Shown here: piece by piece, positions 24,828-31,767 of the stretch
Layout of the letters: each line of letters begins with the position of its first letter
Position numbering within the stretch: the stretch's first letter is position 1
NCBI RefSeq assembly: GCF_020886055.1
Contig: NZ_AP025184.1
Coordinates: forward strand, 1,426,001-1,490,000
Source of the DNA: Flavobacterium ammoniigenes
GTDB taxonomy: Bacteria; Bacteroidota; Bacteroidia; Flavobacteriales; Flavobacteriaceae
Direction: 5' to 3'
DNA length: 64,000 nt
Position numbers and translations under genes: made by a program
Notes under the pieces: generated by a model
What the model saw: only the letters and a program-made list of their open reading frames with translations
Told to the model about the DNA's origin: nothing
Databases searched by the model: none

Positions 24828-24847
24828 AAGTATAGTTTGTATTGATG

Positions 24848-24855
24848 CAAATATA
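24848..24855 (-). promoter_or_regulatory. -7 element of the oxyR promoter
   Basis: TATATTTG on the minus strand, 20 bases before the ATG. No clear -33 box. Confidence 0.5.
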
Positions 24856-24861
24856 AAAACA

Positions 24862-24876
24862 ATAAGTTTAACTTAT
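24862..24876. promoter_or_regulatory. Candidate LysR-type operator upstream of oxyR
   Basis: ATAAGTT-T-AACTTAT, a perfect palindrome with one central base. It holds a T-N11-A pair, the LysR-family box. It sits just behind the -7 element, where a bound protein would block RNA polymerase, as in autorepression of oxyR. Confidence 0.45.
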
Positions 24877-24937
24877 AGACTCTAACCAACATTTAAAGCA
24901 TAAAAAAAGAAAATAAAGATTTCAACGATTTTGTTAA

Positions 24938-25903
24938 TTATGTTGTGCAATTTATAATTGACAAATATATTGGCATACCTATAGTAATGTTTACTGGAAA
25001 TGTTACTGCTAAAGCCATAGGTAAATAAAGCCCAGGATTGGCTTTTGGAACTGTTATTTTCATAGTAGCCGGAACTGCAATATAAGAAGCACTAGCAGCT
25101 AATACTGAAAATATAAATCGGTTTGAAATATCATCAGTTACTATAGAACTTATGATGGCAAATAAACATCCATTTACAATTGGGATTAAAACAGCAAAGA
25201 CTAAAGGAAACCATCCACTATTGAAGAATGACTTTAATTTTTTACCACTCGTAATTCCCATATCCAATAAAAATATAGCTAGAAAACCTTTGAACAAATC
25301 ATTTGTGAATGGTTTGATCCCTTGGGCCTGCTCTGCATTGGCAAGATATCCAATAACCAAACTTCCCAGGATTAGTAGCACACTACCATTGGTTAACGAA
25401 TGTTTTACAATTGATTTTTTTTGGAATTTAGTATTATCTCCTTTATAGAATATTGAAATGAGCATTAAACCAATTATTATTGATGGAGATTCCATCATTG
25501 CCATAACTGCTACCATATGACCATGAAGTTGCAACTGATTGGCTTCCAAATAGGATACTGCTGTGACAAATGTTACCGCACTTACGGATCCATAGGCTGC
25601 AGCAATAGCTCCTGAATCAAAAAGGTTTAATTTTCTTTTCAGAATAAAAAAGGTGTATATAGGAATTACAGCAGATATTCCAATTCCAAATAGTAAAGAC
25701 CATATTATTTCAGTTGAAAATGTTTCATGAGATAATTCTTGTCCTCCTTTAAATCCGATTGCAAATAAAAGATATAAAGAAATGAATTTTGATGAGTTTT
25801 CAGGGATTTCCAAATCACTTTTTAAATAAACTGCTAAGATTCCAAGGACAAAAAAGAGAAGCGCTGGATTTGTTAAGTTTTCAATGAGTAAGTTTACATT
25901 CAT
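24938..25903 (-). CDS. sbtA: SbtA-type sodium-dependent bicarbonate transporter
   Basis: 321 residues with about ten membrane segments and the layout of the SbtA family, which imports bicarbonate with sodium. Marks are NPALLFFVLGILAVYLKSDLE near the N-terminus, AAAYGSVSAVTFVTA near 100, AVMAMMESPSIIIGL near 132-146 and FLLDMGITSGKKL near 210. In cyanobacteria SbtA serves the carbon-concentrating mechanism; other bacteria carry it without carboxysomes. No SbtB (PII-like) gene lies beside it. It is the last gene of the minus-strand operon headed by the small gene at 29574, 27 bases after the dihydroorotase. Confidence 0.88.
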   Translation of the reverse strand: MNVNLLIENLTNPALLFFVLGILAVYLKSDLEIPENSSKFISLYLLFAIGFKGGQELSHETFSTEIIWSLLFGIGISAVIPIYTFFILKRKLNLFDSGAIAAAYGSVSAVTFVTAVSYLEANQLQLHGHMVAVMAMMESPSIIIGLMLISIFYKGDNTKFQKKSIVKHSLTNGSVLLILGSLVIGYLANAEQAQGIKPFTNDLFKGFLAIFLLDMGITSGKKLKSFFNSGWFPLVFAVLIPIVNGCLFAIISSIVTDDISNRFIFSVLAASASYIAVPATMKITVPKANPGLYLPMALAVTFPVNITIGMPIYLSIINCTT

Positions 25904-25930
25904 AATATTAATATCTAGTTAAGTGTTTGT

Positions 25931-27283
25931 TTATCTAATTTTTGAAAATTGTAATCTCATACCTTTTGGGGTATAATCAAATACTCCGTTACAATATACT
26001 ATATTTCCGTTTACAATTGTTGTCATAATTTTGCTTTGAAAAACTTGCTCTTCAAAAGGTGACCAATTGCATTTGTATAAAATATTTTCTTTAGTTACTT
26101 TCCAAGGTTGGTTTAGATCAACCAAAACTAGATCAGCAAAATAACCTTCTCTAATATAGCCACGTTCTTTAAGTTTATAAATTTCGGCAACATTGTGAGC
26201 TGTTTTCTCAGCAATCATTTCTAACGACATTTTATTTTGATGATGCATTTCAAGTAAAGCAGGAAGAGCATGTTGTACCAAAGGACCACCAGATAAAGCT
26301 TTGAAATAATTACCCGTTTTTTCTTTAATTGAGTGGGGAGCATGATCAGTAGCGATGATATCTAATTTCCCGTTATGCAAAGCATCAAATAATCCTTTTT
26401 GATTGACTTCTGATTTTATTGCTGGATTCCATTTAATTTTAGCGCCTAATTTTTTGTAATCTTGGTCTGAAAACCACAAATGATGAACGCAGGCTTCAGC
26501 TGTTATTCGTTTTTTATTTAAAGCTGTTTTATTGTCAAATAATTCAGCTTCAGCGAGAGTGGAAATATGAAATAAATGCAATCTATTACCGTATTTTTTG
26601 GCAATGTTAATTAATTCTTTAGTGGTTGAGTAGCAGGCTTCTTCATTTCGAATTAAAGGATGGTATTCAAATGGAATGTTTTCATTGAATTCTTGTTTTA
26701 GTTTTTCAGTATTTCTTTTGATTATGGCATCATTTTCACTGTGCAATGCAATCAAGGTATTTGAATTGGCAAAAATTTTCTCAATATATTCTGGGTAATT
26801 GGCAATGATGCCATCCTCTTTAGAAAAGTACAATCCATCATCTGTAACACCACATACATTTTCAGTATCGGTATTTAATGTTTCCTGCCAGTTATCTTTG
26901 GTTAAACCCATAAAAAAAGAATAATTTGCCAAGGATTTTCCAGCTGCTAACGAATATTTTTGTTCTAGTAATTCATTAGTAAGTGTATTGGGTAACGTAT
27001 TAGGCATATCCATGAACGAGGTTATACCTCCGGCTACAGCTGCTTTGGATTCGGTGAATAGGTCAGCCTTGTGTGTCAATCCAGGTTCTCTAAAATGAAC
27101 TTGATCGTCAATAAATCCGGGAAGCAGGTATAAGCCTTCTGCATTGATTTCATTACAAACTAGTTCTTTATTTATCGTTATTGAATGATCAATTTTCTCG
27201 ATTCTATTTTTGTTAATTAAGACATCTTTGGTAACAATTCTCCCTTCGTTAACAATCTGTGCATTTCGTATTATTAATCTCAT
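25931..27283 (-). CDS. Dihydroorotase (amidohydrolase superfamily)
   Basis: 450 residues. Dihydroorotase closes carbamoyl aspartate to dihydroorotate in pyrimidine synthesis. Metal and substrate residues visible: DDQVHFREPGL (59-69), MDMPNT (91-96), VTDDG (146-150), His181 in LIALHSEND, His239 in LFHIST and Asp313 in ATDHAPH. The first His of the usual HxH pair is Gln61; from memory this is shared by other Bacteroidota dihydroorotases. The Asp in the VTDDG loop marks the class that lacks a carboxylated lysine. It overlaps the Sua5 gene by 4 bases. The genome may carry a second copy elsewhere; that cannot be seen here. Confidence 0.9.
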   Translation of the reverse strand: MRLIIRNAQIVNEGRIVTKDVLINKNRIEKIDHSITINKELVCNEINAEGLYLLPGFIDDQVHFREPGLTHKADLFTESKAAVAGGITSFMDMPNTLPNTLTNELLEQKYSLAAGKSLANYSFFMGLTKDNWQETLNTDTENVCGVTDDGLYFSKEDGIIANYPEYIEKIFANSNTLIALHSENDAIIKRNTEKLKQEFNENIPFEYHPLIRNEEACYSTTKELINIAKKYGNRLHLFHISTLAEAELFDNKTALNKKRITAEACVHHLWFSDQDYKKLGAKIKWNPAIKSEVNQKGLFDALHNGKLDIIATDHAPHSIKEKTGNYFKALSGGPLVQHALPALLEMHHQNKMSLEMIAEKTAHNVAEIYKLKERGYIREGYFADLVLVDLNQPWKVTKENILYKCNWSPFEEQVFQSKIMTTIVNGNIVYCNGVFDYTPKGMRLQFSKIR

Positions 27284-28242
27284 AATTCAGCTACTGCTCT
27301 GTTTAATCTATCGTTTATAGATTTTCCTAGGTTTATATTGGGTAATTTTTCAATTAAGAGTATGTCTAGACTTAGAGCATCCAATTCATGTAAATAAGAA
27401 TATAAATTCTTTGAAGCTTCCTTAAAATCTCCTGTTGGAGATAAAATGTACTGTACAATTGGCTTCGATGTTTTTACCTTATTTTGAAATAGAAGTACTC
27501 CAATTTTTTCAGATGAGATAGATTTTAATTTTTTTTCAATATCCTCAACAAGAAAAGATTTTGTTTTTGGCGCATAATGTTTAGTAAACATTCCAGGTGC
27601 ACTTGGGGCAATAGAATCTTTATTGTGGACCTTTATTGGGCCTACAATTTTTTCAATTTCTTCGATCGGAATAGCACCAAATCTATAAAGCACTGGTTGT
27701 TCTCCTTCAAATCCGATAATGGTTGATTCAATTCCATTAGGACAATTCCCCCCATCTAAAATGACATCTATTTTATTTTGGAAGTAATCAAATACATGTT
27801 TTGCATTTGTCGGACTTATTGATCCAAACGGGTTGGCGCTTGGAGCTGCTAAAGGGAAATTTAAATGATGTAATAGCTCCAAAGTCAATGGATGATTTGG
27901 AACTCTCACCGCAACTGTAGTTTTTCCGGAGGTGACCCAATCAGAAATACAATCTTGTTTATTCAGAACAAGGGTAAGTGCACCTGGCCAAAATTGAGTT
28001 GCTAATTGAGTTGCTAAAGGAGGTATTTCTTTGGCGACTTCTTTCAGTTGTTCAGTTGACTTAAGATGAACGATTAGCGGATTATTATTGGGTCTGTTTT
28101 TGATTTCGAATATTTGCTTAACTGCAGTTTCGTCAAAAATATTGGCAGCCAAACCATAAACTGTTTCAGTGGGAATAGCTGCCACATTACCTTTGTTTAG
28201 TGTTTTGATTGCGTAAGAAATATCATTAGTTATTAATGTCAT
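27280..28242 (-). CDS. Threonylcarbamoyl-AMP synthase, Sua5 type
   Basis: 320 residues. The enzyme joins threonine, bicarbonate and ATP to threonylcarbamoyl-AMP, the first step of the t6A modification at position 37 of ANN-decoding tRNAs. The YrdC domain occupies about 8-195, with PTETVYGLAAN at 24-34, KNRPNNNPLIVHL at 48-60 and PLAAPSANPFGSISPT near 130-145. A C-terminal Sua5 domain follows from about 205 (PSAPGMFTKHYAPK), so this is the long form, not the short TsaC/YrdC. Its direct use of bicarbonate links it to the SbtA gene of the same operon. Confidence 0.93.
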   Translation of the reverse strand: MTLITNDISYAIKTLNKGNVAAIPTETVYGLAANIFDETAVKQIFEIKNRPNNNPLIVHLKSTEQLKEVAKEIPPLATQLATQFWPGALTLVLNKQDCISDWVTSGKTTVAVRVPNHPLTLELLHHLNFPLAAPSANPFGSISPTNAKHVFDYFQNKIDVILDGGNCPNGIESTIIGFEGEQPVLYRFGAIPIEEIEKIVGPIKVHNKDSIAPSAPGMFTKHYAPKTKSFLVEDIEKKLKSISSEKIGVLLFQNKVKTSKPIVQYILSPTGDFKEASKNLYSYLHELDALSLDILLIEKLPNINLGKSINDRLNRAVAEL

Positions 28243-28250
28243 AATTTATT

Positions 28251-29087
28251 TTAAGGATTACAATAGTCGCAGTACATTGGATCTTCATACTGTTTAGTGT
28301 TGGGAAATAGTTTTGTCTCTTTGTGCAAACACTTTTTGCAGTGATAATTAACGCTTAAAACTGATTGTGTAGGGGAGTTGCATAAATTACATGGTAATCC
28401 TCGAGTCACTTCTTTAATTTCAAATCCAGGGGTTTTACAAAGGGGGCATTTGTTTTTTATTTTTTCAACTAATTGGTAAGTTGTTTGTTCTATAACCTTC
28501 ATCCTAGTTGGATTATAACAGGCTCTCATATCAGTCTCAACAAACACTTTTCCAAATGAATTTAGGATTTCATTAAATTTTAATTTCAATTCTTCTTTAT
28601 TGGTTATTCCTTTGTAACATTTTGAAAAATTAGTTTCATTTGATTTTAGAATTAGTCCGTGAGACGGGAATTGGGCGGTAGATGAAAACTCTATAAGTTC
28701 CTCTTCGGAGTTGATATAGGTTCCGTTAAAATTGGTTGAAGTACTTAATACATTGGCTACAATTTCCAAATTATTTTCCAAGTCCAATAGCATTAAGTGT
28801 TCTTCATTTGCAGGAATAAAAAATACCGAAGGGTGTGCACCAAAAGATCCCTCACTTGCAATCACTAAATCACATTGGTAATACTGTAAAGCGGATAAGC
28901 ATTTTTTGCGAAGGGTTGTAATTACATCATTTTTTCTTTCCATTTCCCCACTAAATGTTCCTAATGAATCGGTATCAAATTCTTGATTTACAATACAGGT
29001 GACTCCAAATTCTTTTTCCAATACCGGAGCAATTATTTTTTCTTTTCCATGTTGAGTAGCAATCAGTAATTTCCTTCCTTCAAACAT
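28251..29087 (-). CDS. DUF6671 zinc-ribbon protein of the SbtA operon
   Basis: 278 residues from the ATG at 29087 (MFEGRKLLIATQHGKEK); a longer frame to 29117 would overlap the preceding gene. I recognise the DUF6671 family, whose function is unknown. The N-terminal two thirds hold short alpha/beta units such as CDLVIASEGSFGAHPSVFF near 72-90 and an invariant-looking ETDMRACYNPTRMKVI near 184-199. The C-terminus has four CxxC pairs, at Cys214/217, 233/236, 250/253 and 273/276, enough for two zinc ribbons. It begins 2 bases after the 91-residue gene and ends 8 bases before the Sua5 gene. Confidence 0.82.
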   Translation of the reverse strand: MFEGRKLLIATQHGKEKIIAPVLEKEFGVTCIVNQEFDTDSLGTFSGEMERKNDVITTLRKKCLSALQYYQCDLVIASEGSFGAHPSVFFIPANEEHLMLLDLENNLEIVANVLSTSTNFNGTYINSEEELIEFSSTAQFPSHGLILKSNETNFSKCYKGITNKEELKLKFNEILNSFGKVFVETDMRACYNPTRMKVIEQTTYQLVEKIKNKCPLCKTPGFEIKEVTRGLPCNLCNSPTQSVLSVNYHCKKCLHKETKLFPNTKQYEDPMYCDYCNP

Positions 29088-29089
29088 TA

Positions 29090-29365
29090 TTAACGGACTG
29101 TTATTTTGATGATGCATTCAATTTCCAAAGTATGTTTTTCTGTCTCTGCTTGAATGATTACATCATTTATCAAAGTATTCATTTTATTTAATTCTTCAAT
29201 CCTTTTTTTGGAATGATCAGTGTCCTTGTTGAAACGAATTTGACTGCTAAAATCTTCTAGACTATGAAAACTAATTTTGTTGTCAATAAGAGAGTTTAAT
29301 AGAGTTTTGGCTTCATTTGGTTCAAAAATGCCCTCTATTAATTTATGTTGTGATACGTTTCCCAT
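29090..29365 (-). CDS. Small protein of unknown function in the SbtA operon
   Basis: 91 residues, soluble, probably alpha/beta. It begins MGNVSQHKLIEGIFEPNEAK, has the phrase NKISFHSLEDFSSQIRFNKD in the middle, a charged helix, and a C-terminal strand LEIECIIKITVR. It is not similar to the PII-like SbtB partner of SbtA: the T-loop and glycine-rich signature are absent. It is tightly packed (gap of 2 bases on both sides) between the small membrane gene and DUF6671, so it belongs to the operon. No family can be named. Confidence 0.75.
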   Translation of the reverse strand: MGNVSQHKLIEGIFEPNEAKTLLNSLIDNKISFHSLEDFSSQIRFNKDTDHSKKRIEELNKMNTLINDVIIQAETEKHTLEIECIIKITVR

Positions 29366-29367
29366 AG

Positions 29368-29574
29368 TTATAATTTTACATTAGTTATTTTTAATAAATA
29401 AGCTGAGAGGAATATTGATATTCCAAGAATAATTGTTGACAAAAATGAATATTCTGAGAGTATATTATATAGCATTGCCGAACACAATAAAATAATTATT
29501 GTTTTATAAACTGTATTATGTGATTTACAGTAAATTTGAATTCTCCTTCTCAATAGTAATTTTATATTTAGCAT
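29368..29574 (-). CDS. Small membrane protein, first gene of the SbtA operon
   Basis: 68 residues from the ATG at 29574 (MLNIKLLLRRRIQIY); a longer frame reaches 29607 but that part contains the -7 element. A basic N-terminal stretch of about 20 residues precedes two hydrophobic segments, TIIILLCSAMLYNILSEY and LSTIILGISIFLSAYLL. Nothing in it is recognisable. By position it is the first cistron under the control of the LysR-bound gap. Confidence 0.62.
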   Translation of the reverse strand: MLNIKLLLRRRIQIYCKSHNTVYKTIIILLCSAMLYNILSEYSFLSTIILGISIFLSAYLLKITNVKL

Positions 29575-29591
29575 CTTTTTTTTGCAAAGTT

Positions 29592-29599
29592 CAAATTTA
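29592..29599 (-). promoter_or_regulatory. -7 element of the SbtA operon promoter
   Basis: TAAATTTG on the minus strand, 17 bases before the ATG at 29574. No -33 TTG is present at the proper distance, as expected for a promoter that needs an activator. Confidence 0.5.
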
Positions 29600-29653
29600 T
29601 AAATCATATATTTTTATTTATATTTGTTATCATTTACATAAATATATTTTATG
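29599..29653. promoter_or_regulatory. Two candidate LysR-binding dyads between the SbtA operon and its regulator
   Basis: Site 1: CATAAA-TATAT-TTTATG at 29637-29653, a perfect dyad with a T-N11-A pair, overlapping the LysR start codon. Site 2: ATAAAT-N11-ATTTAT at 29599-29621, abutting the operon's -7 box. Relative to a start near 29585 the two centres lie near -60 and -25, the layout known for LysR regulators (recognition and activation sites). The region is very AT-rich, so chance dyads are possible. Confidence 0.45.
29619..29626 (+). promoter_or_regulatory. -7 element of the LysR gene
   Basis: TATATTTG, 24 bases before the LysR ATG. It lies between and partly inside the two dyads, which would allow autoregulation. 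Confidence 0.5.
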
Positions 29654-30574
29654 AATTATACATTTCATCAATTAAAAGTCTTTTTGAAAGTTTCTCAAAC
29701 AAAAAGTATTACAAAGGCTGCAAATGAGCTTCATCTTACACAACCAGCGGTTTCTATACAATTAAAAAACTTTCAAGATCAATTTGATATTCCGCTTACA
29801 GAGGTCATTGGACGGCAATTGTATGTAACTGAATTTGGAAAAGAAATTGCAGCTACCGCAGAACAAATTTTAAATGAGGTTGAAAAAATCAATTTCAAAA
29901 CTCTTGCATATAAAGGAATTTTATCTGGAGTTTTAAAATTATCGGTTGTATCTACAGGTAAATATGTAATGCCATATTTTTTGAGTGATTTTTTGAATTT
30001 AAACAATGGAATCGAGCTAGATATGGATGTTACTAATAAAACAAAAGTGATTAAAGCTTTGAGAAATAATGAAATAGATTTTGCATTAGTTTCTAGTCTG
30101 CCAAGTGAAATCAATGTAGAATCAGAAACATTAATGCAAAATAAATTGTTCCTGGTCAGTAATAAAGAGTATTTGATTGATTCAAAAATACCTAGTAATG
30201 TTTCTTTAATTGATGTGCCTTTAATCTATAGAGAAGAAGGTTCTGCTACAAGATTACATATGGAAAATTATTTTTCTAAAAAAGGATATATAATTAAAAG
30301 TAAATTGCAATTAACTTCTAATGAAGCAGTTAAACAGGCTGTTATATCAGGAATTGGCATGTCCATCATGCCGTTAATTGGTTTGAAAAACGAATTGGAA
30401 AAGGGTGATATTAAAATAATTCCTGCTAAAGGACTACCCATTGTGACTAATTGGAAATTGGTTTGGTTAAAAGGAAAGAAAATGAGTCCAGCTGCAGCCG
30501 CTTATTTAGAGTACATACAAAAACAAAAAATAATTATTAATGAAAATCAATTTTCATGGATTAATAATTATTAA
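29651..30574 (+). CDS. LysR-family regulator, CbbR/CmpR-like
   Basis: 307 residues. The winged helix reads KSITKAANELHLTQPAVSIQLKNF near 18-41. The start of the effector domain, LKLSVVSTGKYVMPYFLSDFL near 92-112, resembles CbbR and CmpR, the regulators of CO2 fixation and bicarbonate uptake genes, more than the OxyR-type gene at 24 kb. It is divergent to the SbtA operon with 76 bases between start codons, the usual arrangement of a LysR gene and its target. The effector is unknown. Its stop overlaps the stop of the convergent LETM1-related gene by four bases. Confidence 0.88.
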   Translation: MNYTFHQLKVFLKVSQTKSITKAANELHLTQPAVSIQLKNFQDQFDIPLTEVIGRQLYVTEFGKEIAATAEQILNEVEKINFKTLAYKGILSGVLKLSVVSTGKYVMPYFLSDFLNLNNGIELDMDVTNKTKVIKALRNNEIDFALVSSLPSEINVESETLMQNKLFLVSNKEYLIDSKIPSNVSLIDVPLIYREEGSATRLHMENYFSKKGYIIKSKLQLTSNEAVKQAVISGIGMSIMPLIGLKNELEKGDIKIIPAKGLPIVTNWKLVWLKGKKMSPAAAAYLEYIQKQKIIINENQFSWINNY

Positions 30575-31767
30575 TCATTCAAGTTTTCATTGAAAGCCGA
30601 AGGGAGTAGGGTAGGAATGAACTTGATTAAAATGGGTAACAATAAACTACCGCCTGGTAATAGAAAAATTGCCAAGGAGGGAATTGATTTGCAAATATCT
30701 AAGAGTTGTTTTTTTATTTTTTTCTTTTCTTTTTCATCCAAGTCTCTACTAGTTGAATAGGCTAGTAGTACCATAAGTTCTTTACTTTGAACAATTTCTT
30801 TTACCAAACGAGTTCGGTTACGTGCTATAAGAGTTACGACACTCTGCGTTGTTTGATCGTAAAAATGTTTAACAGGATTGGAATAATTAAAATAAGGGAT
30901 TTCCTTTTTATGTTTGGAAATAAAGAGATTGGTATCTTGAATACTTTGATTTACAAACGCGTCTGAAACTGTAAGAGCTTCGGCTAATTGGTATAAATAA
31001 TACGATTCATTAGTTTCTAAAACACCATCGTTCCATAGCGCCATACCTGCCATATCAATTAGGTAATTCTTTTCTAATTCATGGGTAAAAAAATCTAATT
31101 CTAGTGTTTCTATGCTTAAATTAGAGTTTTTTGAAAATTTACTATAGCGTATTGATGCTTCAAAAAGTTTAATCAACAAATCGTCATATTGGGATTTATT
31201 GGTTTTCACCTTCAAGGCTAAAGTGACAATATTGACAATCGTCTCTTCTATTTTTTTAAGGTATTTTTCAGGAATTGTTCCATGAATTAAATATTGGCGA
31301 AAAGCCAAAACATCAATAAACAAAAGCGCATTAGTAACTAGATGAGAAAAGTTTTTACTAATAATATTTTCATTGGTTTGAACCCGCTCATCTATAAATT
31401 TCTCTAGGGTTAGCGAAGGACTGTTTTTGGGCAGTAGTTTTTTAAATAAGTTAAACTCTTCGGGATGCATTTCATTATAAAAAGAAACTGATTCTGTGAT
31501 GAATTCTTTCCAGTTTAAGTCCTTTTTGGTTACTGTATAAACTTCTAGAAGACTATTGAATAAGGCAACTTTAGATACTTCTTCTTTGAACCATCCTTTG
31601 ATAGGAATTGGTAATTTTGTATTAAGAGAAATAATATGCCCATAAACAAACCCCGTGTTTCTTAACGCTTCATAGAACGAGTCACTTTCAATGACCAATT
31701 TCTGTTCTGAAATTTTTTGTTCACTGAAAAATTTATCTATCCAACCAGGTACCGAAGGGTTTATCAT
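30571..31767 (-). CDS. LETM1-related protein
   Basis: 398 residues, cytosolic for most of its length and helical. The C-terminal part carries the LETM1-like stretch: ARNRTRLVKEIVQSKELMVLL, an acidic-basic linker, then SIPSLAIFLLPGGSLLLPIL, where LETM1 proteins have LPGG and a membrane-associated helix. LETM1 in mitochondria works in cation exchange. In flavobacteria this family is listed as LETM1-related biofilm-associated protein; its action is not known. The stop overlaps the stop of the convergent LysR gene. Confidence 0.75.
   Translation of the reverse strand: MINPSVPGWIDKFFSEQKISEQKLVIESDSFYEALRNTGFVYGHIISLNTKLPIPIKGWFKEEVSKVALFNSLLEVYTVTKKDLNWKEFITESVSFYNEMHPEEFNLFKKLLPKNSPSLTLEKFIDERVQTNENIISKNFSHLVTNALLFIDVLAFRQYLIHGTIPEKYLKKIEETIVNIVTLALKVKTNKSQYDDLLIKLFEASIRYSKFSKNSNLSIETLELDFFTHELEKNYLIDMAGMALWNDGVLETNESYYLYQLAEALTVSDAFVNQSIQDTNLFISKHKKEIPYFNYSNPVKHFYDQTTQSVVTLIARNRTRLVKEIVQSKELMVLLAYSTSRDLDEKEKKKIKKQLLDICKSIPSLAIFLLPGGSLLLPILIKFIPTLLPSAFNENLND

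Follow-up and report, generated by a model that had tools for sequence, protein, structure and literature searches.

A candidate NdhR-like regulon for bicarbonate limitation in Flavobacterium

Low-CO2 regulons are known from autotrophs, and the need of heterotrophs for bicarbonate has long been known. In cyanobacteria, high-affinity bicarbonate uptake is controlled by LysR-type regulators, with a divergent gene layout in the case of CmpR and self-repression in that of CcmR (passages of PMC13249358 and PMC3401165). Growth of heterotrophs requires bicarbonate for lipid, nucleotide and arginine synthesis (according to excerpts of PMC9894237), and in Staphylococcus aureus a bicarbonate transporter can stand in for carbonic anhydrase and vice versa (excerpts of PMC6689103). 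Here we analyze a stretch of 64,000 nucleotides from Flavobacterium ammoniigenes (contig NZ_AP025184.1, positions 1,426,001 to 1,490,000; hereafter the window), taken from a genome of 2.26 Mb in a single contig, in which the gene of an SbtA-family bicarbonate transporter and five further genes form one operon divergent from a LysR gene. The window probably holds a reduced local version of a Flavobacterium NdhR-like regulon for inorganic-carbon (bicarbonate) limitation, of which a DUF6671 protein and a 91-amino-acid (aa) protein would be new members. This reading is built on the gene set, its conservation, the swapping of carbon transporters, a shared control element, the kinship of the regulator and the paralogue copies of the enzymes.

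The operon, its control element and its regulator

The initial annotation had described six minus-strand genes and a divergent LysR gene, with which the list of open reading frames (ORFs) and the family profiles agree. The features, in window coordinates, are:

24938..25903, minus strand: SbtA-family protein, predicted Na+-dependent bicarbonate transporter, by PF05982
25931..27283, minus strand: second dihydroorotase, NF006688 type, by NCBIfam profile
27280..28242, minus strand: Sua5, threonylcarbamoyl-AMP synthase with a C-terminal Sua5 domain, by PF01300 and PF03481
28251..29087 (ORF to 29117), minus strand: DUF6671 protein, likely 278 aa, by PF20376
29090..29365, minus strand: 91-aa protein of a family without Pfam match, by Pfam scan and structure prediction
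29368..29574, minus strand: small protein of 68 aa counted from M12, with two apparent membrane helices seen by eye
29585..29643, no strand: conserved bidirectional control region, from the alignment of LysR upstream regions
29585..29592, minus strand: putative -7-like element of the operon, reverse of CAAANNT
29606..29621, no strand: near-perfect inverted repeat ATAW-N8-TTAT, putative LysR-type box with the same layout as the NdhR ATAG-N8-CTAT (passage of PMC13249358)
29619..29626, plus strand: TATATTTG, putative -7-like element of the LysR gene, overlapping the box
29651..30574, plus strand: LysR regulator of the NdhR/CcmR-CmpR-CbbR group, by profiles and solved relatives

From SbtA upward the genes are separated by 27, -4, 8, 2 and 2 bases, counted with a DUF6671 start moved to 29087 because the closest homologues begin at MFEGRK and have 278 aa. 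The longest ORF of the two-helix protein, which has no family match, is 79 aa (29368-29607), and since its first ATG lies inside the conserved control region, the start is likely M12 (29574). With this start the gap to LysR is 76 bases, as the initial annotation had given it; similar short two-helix ORFs occur at the same place in several kin.

The 110 bases before the LysR start were aligned for 81 dereplicated loci, drawn from 92 (L186 was dropped for its start call), and share a nearly invariant consensus, gCAAANNT-N13-CATaWATTTTTATTTATATTTG-taATG-N5-CATaAAA. The -7 consensus of Bacteroidota is TAnnTTTG, and we read CAAANNT as a presumed reversed -7 of the operon and TATATTTG as that of LysR, ATAW-N8-TTAT as the likely LysR box, and ATG-N5-CAT as a possible second site that is imperfect in the window. 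The overlap of TATATTTG with the box suggests that LysR may regulate its own gene. In its own genome the window element is the sole match to the search pattern, with 0 mismatches. A matrix scan of the fetched loci returned 113 matches, 20 of them not beside LysR, and the best score in a shuffle control (one per locus, 60 loci, 1.0 Mb) was -15.7 against a threshold of 16.

Searching 249 whole Flavobacterium genomes with at most 2 mismatches gave 113 matches in 92 genomes, a total that equals that of the matrix scan by coincidence, and 4 with the reversed pattern; such a search is free of the bias of locus choice, though the pattern was built from those loci. The element occurs in 88 of the 92 genomes with SbtA or DUF6671 and in 4 of the 157 without (88/4/4/153; Fisher p 8e-57, not corrected for kinship). 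Of 112 matches viewed in context (the 113th, in G003, is not among them), 86 lie beside LysR, 24 beside another gene of the regulon (isocitrate dehydrogenase (IDH), 91-aa protein, DabB, carbonic anhydrase, Band 7 or SbtA) and 2 elsewhere, presumably by chance. The test with the least bias is given by matches at a distance from the operon, because they were found by the pattern alone. Such sites precede carbonic anhydrase (L276, L277), IDH (L274, L275 and L279, the last with an over-long ORF start and counted among the 24) and 91-aa protein-DabB-DabA (L283); others stand at Band 7 (L281, L282) and at LysR itself (L278), and in L280 (G220) a degenerate, broken LysR still carries the element. Far sites upstream of DabB, directly or via the 91-aa gene, also occur in L208, L209, L213, L254 and L255. 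Two candidate sites, L284 (matrix score 5.8) and L285 (no matrix match), were taken as chance.

Band-7/SPFH proteins are encoded under the same element or within the operon in L281, L282, L275, L050, L145 and L186, and L275 and L056 also hold a possible lipoprotein of ~221 aa and a DUF2490 protein. A second DabA type, of ~830 aa and without the ~480-aa DabB, is found at 15 Flavobacterium loci (L238-L252), in most of them beside a protein of ~600-780 aa and one or more small genes. As an internal control, the element is absent from these 15 loci, where the whole-genome scan gave none either, so that membership of this 829-aa DabA type is not supported; it is also absent from L253, whose DabA has an internal stop.

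The closest solved relatives of the LysR protein are 5y2v (E 2.5e-54) and CmpR (5z49, E 2.1e-26), followed by 8sbf (5.3e-24) and OxyR (3.3e-13). The 5y2v entry, labelled 'Rubisco operon transcriptional regulator' and with a chain to which the window LysR is 35% identical, is presumably NdhR. Ten NdhR contact residues printed in full in the passages of PMC13249358 agree with the letters of 5y2v at the same numbers. By sequence kinship the regulator belongs to the NdhR/CcmR-CmpR-CbbR group, and it is related to the Rhodobacter-type CbbR equivalog NF045990 without being a member of it. The contacts of 2-oxoglutarate are present in the window as K104, Y105, S223 and N224 (K104, Y105, S224 and N225 of NdhR), K104 being our reading of a lysine printed incompletely ('Lys10') in the available text of PMC13249358. 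Among 91 LysRs, K104, Y105 and N225 are conserved in 91/91 and S224 in 78/91. The 2-phosphoglycolate contacts of NdhR are identical in the window LysR at four of seven positions.

The co-repressor of NdhR in cyanobacteria is 2-oxoglutarate, which builds up when inorganic carbon is high or nitrogen is limiting (passages of PMC3401165 and PMC13249358). A heterotroph makes 2-oxoglutarate from oxaloacetate fed by anaplerotic carboxylases, and this metabolite could therefore report bicarbonate supply there too. We propose that the NdhR/CcmR-like LysR would bind the ATAW-N8-TTAT box and the second inverted repeat in the shared promoter region, repress its own gene and switch the divergent operon, probably in response to 2-oxoglutarate, whose pool in a heterotroph would depend on anaplerosis fed by bicarbonate. 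A shortage of bicarbonate would lead to expression of the operon. Internal bicarbonate would then be raised by SbtA, or in kin by DabAB, SulP or carbonic anhydrase; the extra Sua5 and dihydroorotase would sustain synthesis of the tRNA modification t6A and of pyrimidines, and in kin an extra IDH would support the supply of 2-oxoglutarate. DNA binding by LysR, induction at low CO2, the 2-oxoglutarate signal, the direction of regulation and the benefit of each enzyme are what we infer from these features.

The conserved 2-oxoglutarate site would also suit a regulon for carbon/nitrogen balance, in which 2-oxoglutarate tells LysR about nitrogen status and the outputs comprise glutamate, pyrimidine and tRNA functions, with carbon uptake as one among them; that the IDH of kin makes 2-oxoglutarate and that dihydroorotase is an enzyme of a nitrogen pathway also fit. 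We consider this unlikely, though the best of the alternatives, because the far element sites that were read precede carbon transporters, carbonic anhydrase, IDH, Band-7, 91-aa and LysR genes, among which no glutamine or ammonium gene was recognised, and because what SbtA, DabAB, SulP and carbonic anhydrase share is bicarbonate and not nitrogen.

Paralogue enzymes, conservation and exchange of carbon genes

Threonylcarbamoyl-AMP synthesis consumes bicarbonate, and dihydroorotase comes after carbamoyl phosphate, itself made from bicarbonate. For human YRDC a bicarbonate Km of 13 mM has been given, and 31 mM for the full t6A reaction (excerpt of PMC5951830). That t6A and pyrimidine synthesis would be the first pathways to starve, as the initial annotation supposed, is conjecture. 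SbtA, present in a single copy in its own genome, matches PF05982 (Sbt_1) over residues 13-317 with 380.8 bits against a cut-off of 27 and would by family membership be a Na+-dependent bicarbonate transporter; its solved relative is the Slr1512 SbtA 7cye (84 bits, E 1e-22). Sua5 matches PF01300 (201 bits), PF03481 (87 bits) and TIGR00057 (above cut-off), and has a solved relative in 6f87 (E 2.4e-69). The window dihydroorotase reaches 617.9 bits with NF006688 (curated cut-off 535). The initial annotation held that its view would fail if the dihydroorotase and Sua5 were sole copies and constitutively expressed; in favour of that view, the same genome contains another dihydroorotase (392354-393481, L076; 446 aa, NF006688 739 bits), to which the operon enzyme is 51% identical, and elsewhere two short YrdC/TsaC-like proteins (L078, L079). 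Identity of the operon dihydroorotase to the operon copies of 12 other loci of the genus is 64-67%.

Neighbours were counted within 7 kb of DUF6671 at 80 loci of the genus, which come from 74 of the 75 DUF6671-positive genomes in the 249-genome sample and from 3 further congeners, in regions read up to ~18 kb around DUF6671, some of them cut by contig ends. SbtA loci were read in 14 of 17 SbtA-only genomes (G003, G160 and G214 were left out) and DabA loci in 26 of 28 DabA genomes (G175 and G208 left out). Genes were labelled by BLAST to a few reference proteins, with Pfam checks of some, and the counts are biased because loci were chosen by SbtA, DUF6671 or DabA. Sua5 is a neighbour at 74 of the 80 loci, the 91-aa protein at 73, SbtA and a divergent LysR at 69 each, IDH at 39, carbonic anhydrase at 22, dihydroorotase at 16, SulP at 13 and DabA at 1, and at least one of SbtA, SulP, DabA and carbonic anhydrase is found at 72. 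Across the 249 genomes, 71 have both SbtA and DUF6671, 17 SbtA alone, 4 DUF6671 alone and 157 neither (Fisher p 2e-40, not corrected for kinship); such p-values are descriptive, because genomes of one genus are related. The window operon is a reduced version, since many kin add IDH and/or carbonic anhydrase, and the IDH, carbonic anhydrase and Band-7 members known from kin are missing from it. SbtA itself is interrupted by stops in two genomes (G290:C15, G208:C51). Near the SbtA operon, a recurring cassette of genes for proteins of ~555, 450 and 460 aa is seen in L002, L071, L177, L179 and L193, one of which is an ABC-type exporter in L071 by Pfam, the others being HlyD- and TolC-like by eye.

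The initial annotation had tied the locus to inorganic carbon, a link strongly supported by the shared element at carbon genes, the NdhR/CmpR kinship of LysR and the swapping of transporters. SbtA, DabAB, SulP and carbonic anhydrase, inorganic-carbon genes that are not homologous to one another, interchange at the locus. LysR-DabB-DabA lies beside DUF6671 in a genome without SbtA (L072; G087), SulP-carbonic anhydrase replaces SbtA at L149 (also a genome without SbtA; G284 likewise), and at L146 SulP-carbonic anhydrase is at the locus with SbtA on another contig. In the LysR tree the association with Dab requires 3 changes, at least 2 of them forced by starred branches. SulP-carbonic anhydrase was also considered as a regulon member by the DNA element, which is not supported.

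The neighbourhood, which might have been confined to close strains, is kept across the genus and beyond it (L003-L006, L162, L167). A sample of 395 genomes of the phylum has DUF6671 in 12, namely 5 Flavobacterium (including the window's own) and 7 outside the genus, three of these seven being weak partial matches. Outside the genus, L162 has DabB-DabA-DUF6671-Sua5-91aa with a different regulator (G557 has the same order), L167 has DabB-DabA-DUF6671 with this LysR, and L163 and L166 carry an IDH-DUF6671 pair. Loci L003 and L005, from metagenome-assembled genomes, hold IDH, 91-aa-like proteins, DUF6671, dihydroorotase and SbtA and no Sua5, and another such locus, L004, begins at DUF6671. In L168, one of the weak matches and from a distant member of the Bacteroidota, the carbamoyl-phosphate synthase genes CarA and CarB stand directly before SbtA, a P-II protein and carbonic anhydrase (L168:2781-8948), with IDH, a DUF6671-related gene and a CbbR-like LysR alongside the CarA-CarB-SbtA stretch.

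This pattern bears on the idea that the functional link is limited to SbtA and LysR, with Sua5, dihydroorotase and DUF6671 retained only because they are transcribed together with SbtA. Loci where SbtA, LysR and the 91-aa protein stand alone (L195, L198, L200, L201, L205, L206, L214) would suit such an idea. We hold it to be quite improbable, given that DUF6671-Sua5 accompany DabAB outside the genus (L162) and IDH without a nearby transporter (L070, L073), and that the tree separates the 13 operon-type dihydroorotases of the genus, the window's among them, from the housekeeping copy and all other rows with a support of 0.958.

The DUF6671 protein matches PF20376 with 300.6 bits. Its C-terminal part is cysteine-rich, with 8 invariant cysteines, and probably binds zinc, and its N-terminal domain is tentatively predicted to have an ITPase/HAM1/YjjX-like fold; a role in nucleotide handling would be a guess. 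A sequence search of the DUF6671 profile against solved structures gave nothing useful, PelC, the first Foldseek match, was not used (rmsd 9.6), and no mention of DUF6671 was found in the open-access literature searched. The 91-aa protein belongs to no Pfam family, begins with the motif 'LI.G.F...EA', is predicted to be beta-alpha-alpha-beta and occurs at both SbtA and DabAB loci. It is unlikely to be an SbtB-like PII protein, as the beta-alpha-alpha-beta model has no significant PDB match and the protein partners DabAB too; a P-II protein beside SbtA was seen only in L168, without a profile search for P-II elsewhere. The 478-aa IDH of kin is missing in the window's own genome, whose two Iso_dh proteins are shorter (open frames of 377 and 355 aa). 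Monomeric IDH is present there and in 16 of 16 genomes tested, and the long type has seven occurrences in 16 genomes, each inside the region fetched around DUF6671.

Regulons of the zinc-uptake regulator include additional copies of dihydroorotase and carbonic anhydrase. That the operon is a set of paralogues for zinc starvation, with which the dihydroorotase of the window and the carbonic anhydrase of kin would agree, is the least probable explanation of all, as the regulator is LysR and not Fur/Zur, a DUF6671 protein with eight invariant cysteines would be a poor choice under zinc shortage, and SbtA, Sua5 and IDH are not zinc enzymes.

Two further observations concern the flanks of the operon. 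A LETM1-related biofilm-associated protein (NF040639; window 30571-31767) adjoins LysR in convergent orientation and is near at 18 of the 80 loci. Between an OxyR-like gene and SbtA there are only 110 bases (window 24828-24937), where many kin (L052, L067, L069, L186-L189, L194) have a SulP and carbonic anhydrase cassette; given that only 110 bases remain, this cassette was either lost in the window genome or gained in kin.

Strength of the bicarbonate-limitation reading

Several points weigh against a bicarbonate-limitation regulon. Expression, binding and transport are predictions from sequence; the window SbtA is only distantly related to the characterised transporter 7cye; and the LysR scores below the NCBIfam CbbR cut-off (NF045990, 181.1 against 450 bits), with three 2-phosphoglycolate contacts of NdhR changed (T101S, H130K, R267T), position 130 being K in 86/91 LysRs and position 267 T or S in 91/91. 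Dihydroorotase is present at only 16 of the 80 DUF6671 loci, and three of these 16 (L047, L058, L144) are 53-55% identical and branch with the housekeeping copy. The relatives compared in the Fisher tests are not independent, and DUF6671 is absent from 17 of the 88 SbtA genomes. The initial annotation had asked whether DUF6671 always comes with SbtA or DabA/DabB: SbtA is present in 71 of the 75 DUF6671 genomes, and two of the four without it (G059, G061) lack DabA as well as any carbon gene within 7 kb. No carbon gene lies within 7 kb at 8 of the 80 loci, and in the genomes of five of these eight SbtA is found elsewhere (G019, G175, G193, G206, G275; G386 was left out). Four genomes with SbtA or DUF6671 (G152, G160, G208, G214) have no match to the element, G152 having a weaker one (L186), and no match to it was found in front of the neighbouring SulP-carbonic anhydrase cassettes. 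The LysR closest to the L162 genes shares only 26% identity. As for L168, DUF6671 is matched only in its C-terminal part (61.6 bits, 22% identity), and CarB and SbtA are separated by a hairpin followed by a T-run, seen by eye. In addition, the CarB ORF stops short of the C-terminus of the model, and this locus gave no match to the control element.

A wider interpretation seems to us evenly balanced between right and wrong: heterotrophic Bacteroidota would possess a bicarbonate-starvation regulon under a 2-oxoglutarate-sensing NdhR-type LysR, which besides importing bicarbonate would supply isozymes where its shortage is felt (t6A, pyrimidines, isocitrate/2-oxoglutarate). Two new families would belong to it: DUF6671, an ITPase-like enzyme with a Cys-rich tail, which may remove faulty nucleotides that arise when carboxylation steps stall, and 91-aa, which accompanies unrelated carbon transporters. 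The locus suggests that bacteria feeding on organic matter carry a dedicated low-CO2 programme. One DNA element would mark such a response in about one third of the sampled Flavobacterium genomes (92/249) and could serve as a readable marker of bicarbonate limitation of Bacteroidota in metagenomes. In addition, the gene layout links bicarbonate supply with pyrimidine synthesis and with the t6A modification of tRNA, and it offers a testable class of function for DUF6671 and for a small-protein family without Pfam match.

Comparison with known systems

No description of a dedicated heterotroph regulon for bicarbonate shortage was found in the open-access literature searched. For S. aureus, the passages searched of a paper on bicarbonate depletion (PMC11394868) do not mention pyrimidine, isocitrate, threonylcarbamoyl or LysR. 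The sbtA genes of marine Flavobacteriia, discussed in terms of anaplerotic, proteorhodopsin-linked carbon uptake, belong to the same transporter family, and the passages concerned name neither a regulator nor the set of Sua5, dihydroorotase, DUF6671 and IDH (PMC5932025, PMC4148732). In human mitochondria, where t6A is sensitive to CO2, threonylcarbamoyl-AMP synthesis is limited by bicarbonate, as it would be here; the excerpts of PMC5951830 contain no gene regulation, whereas in the window the gene of an additional synthase shares an operon with that of a bicarbonate importer. MpsAB/DabAB of S. aureus likewise supplies bicarbonate for anaplerosis in a non-autotroph, but is, as far as the passages of PMC6689103 go, a single transporter operon, while the present locus joins a regulator and a DNA element to enzymes from pathways that depend on bicarbonate. 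The stretch read contains no carboxysome or RuBisCO gene, and no genome-wide search for RuBisCO was made. The NdhR/CcmR and CmpR regulons of the cyanobacterial CO2-concentrating mechanism have in common with the window a LysR of the same group and an inverted-repeat box with an eight-base spacer (passages of PMC13249358). Unlike in cyanobacteria, the targets in the window and its kin would include DabAB, carbonic anhydrase, IDH, Sua5, dihydroorotase, DUF6671 and the 91-aa protein.

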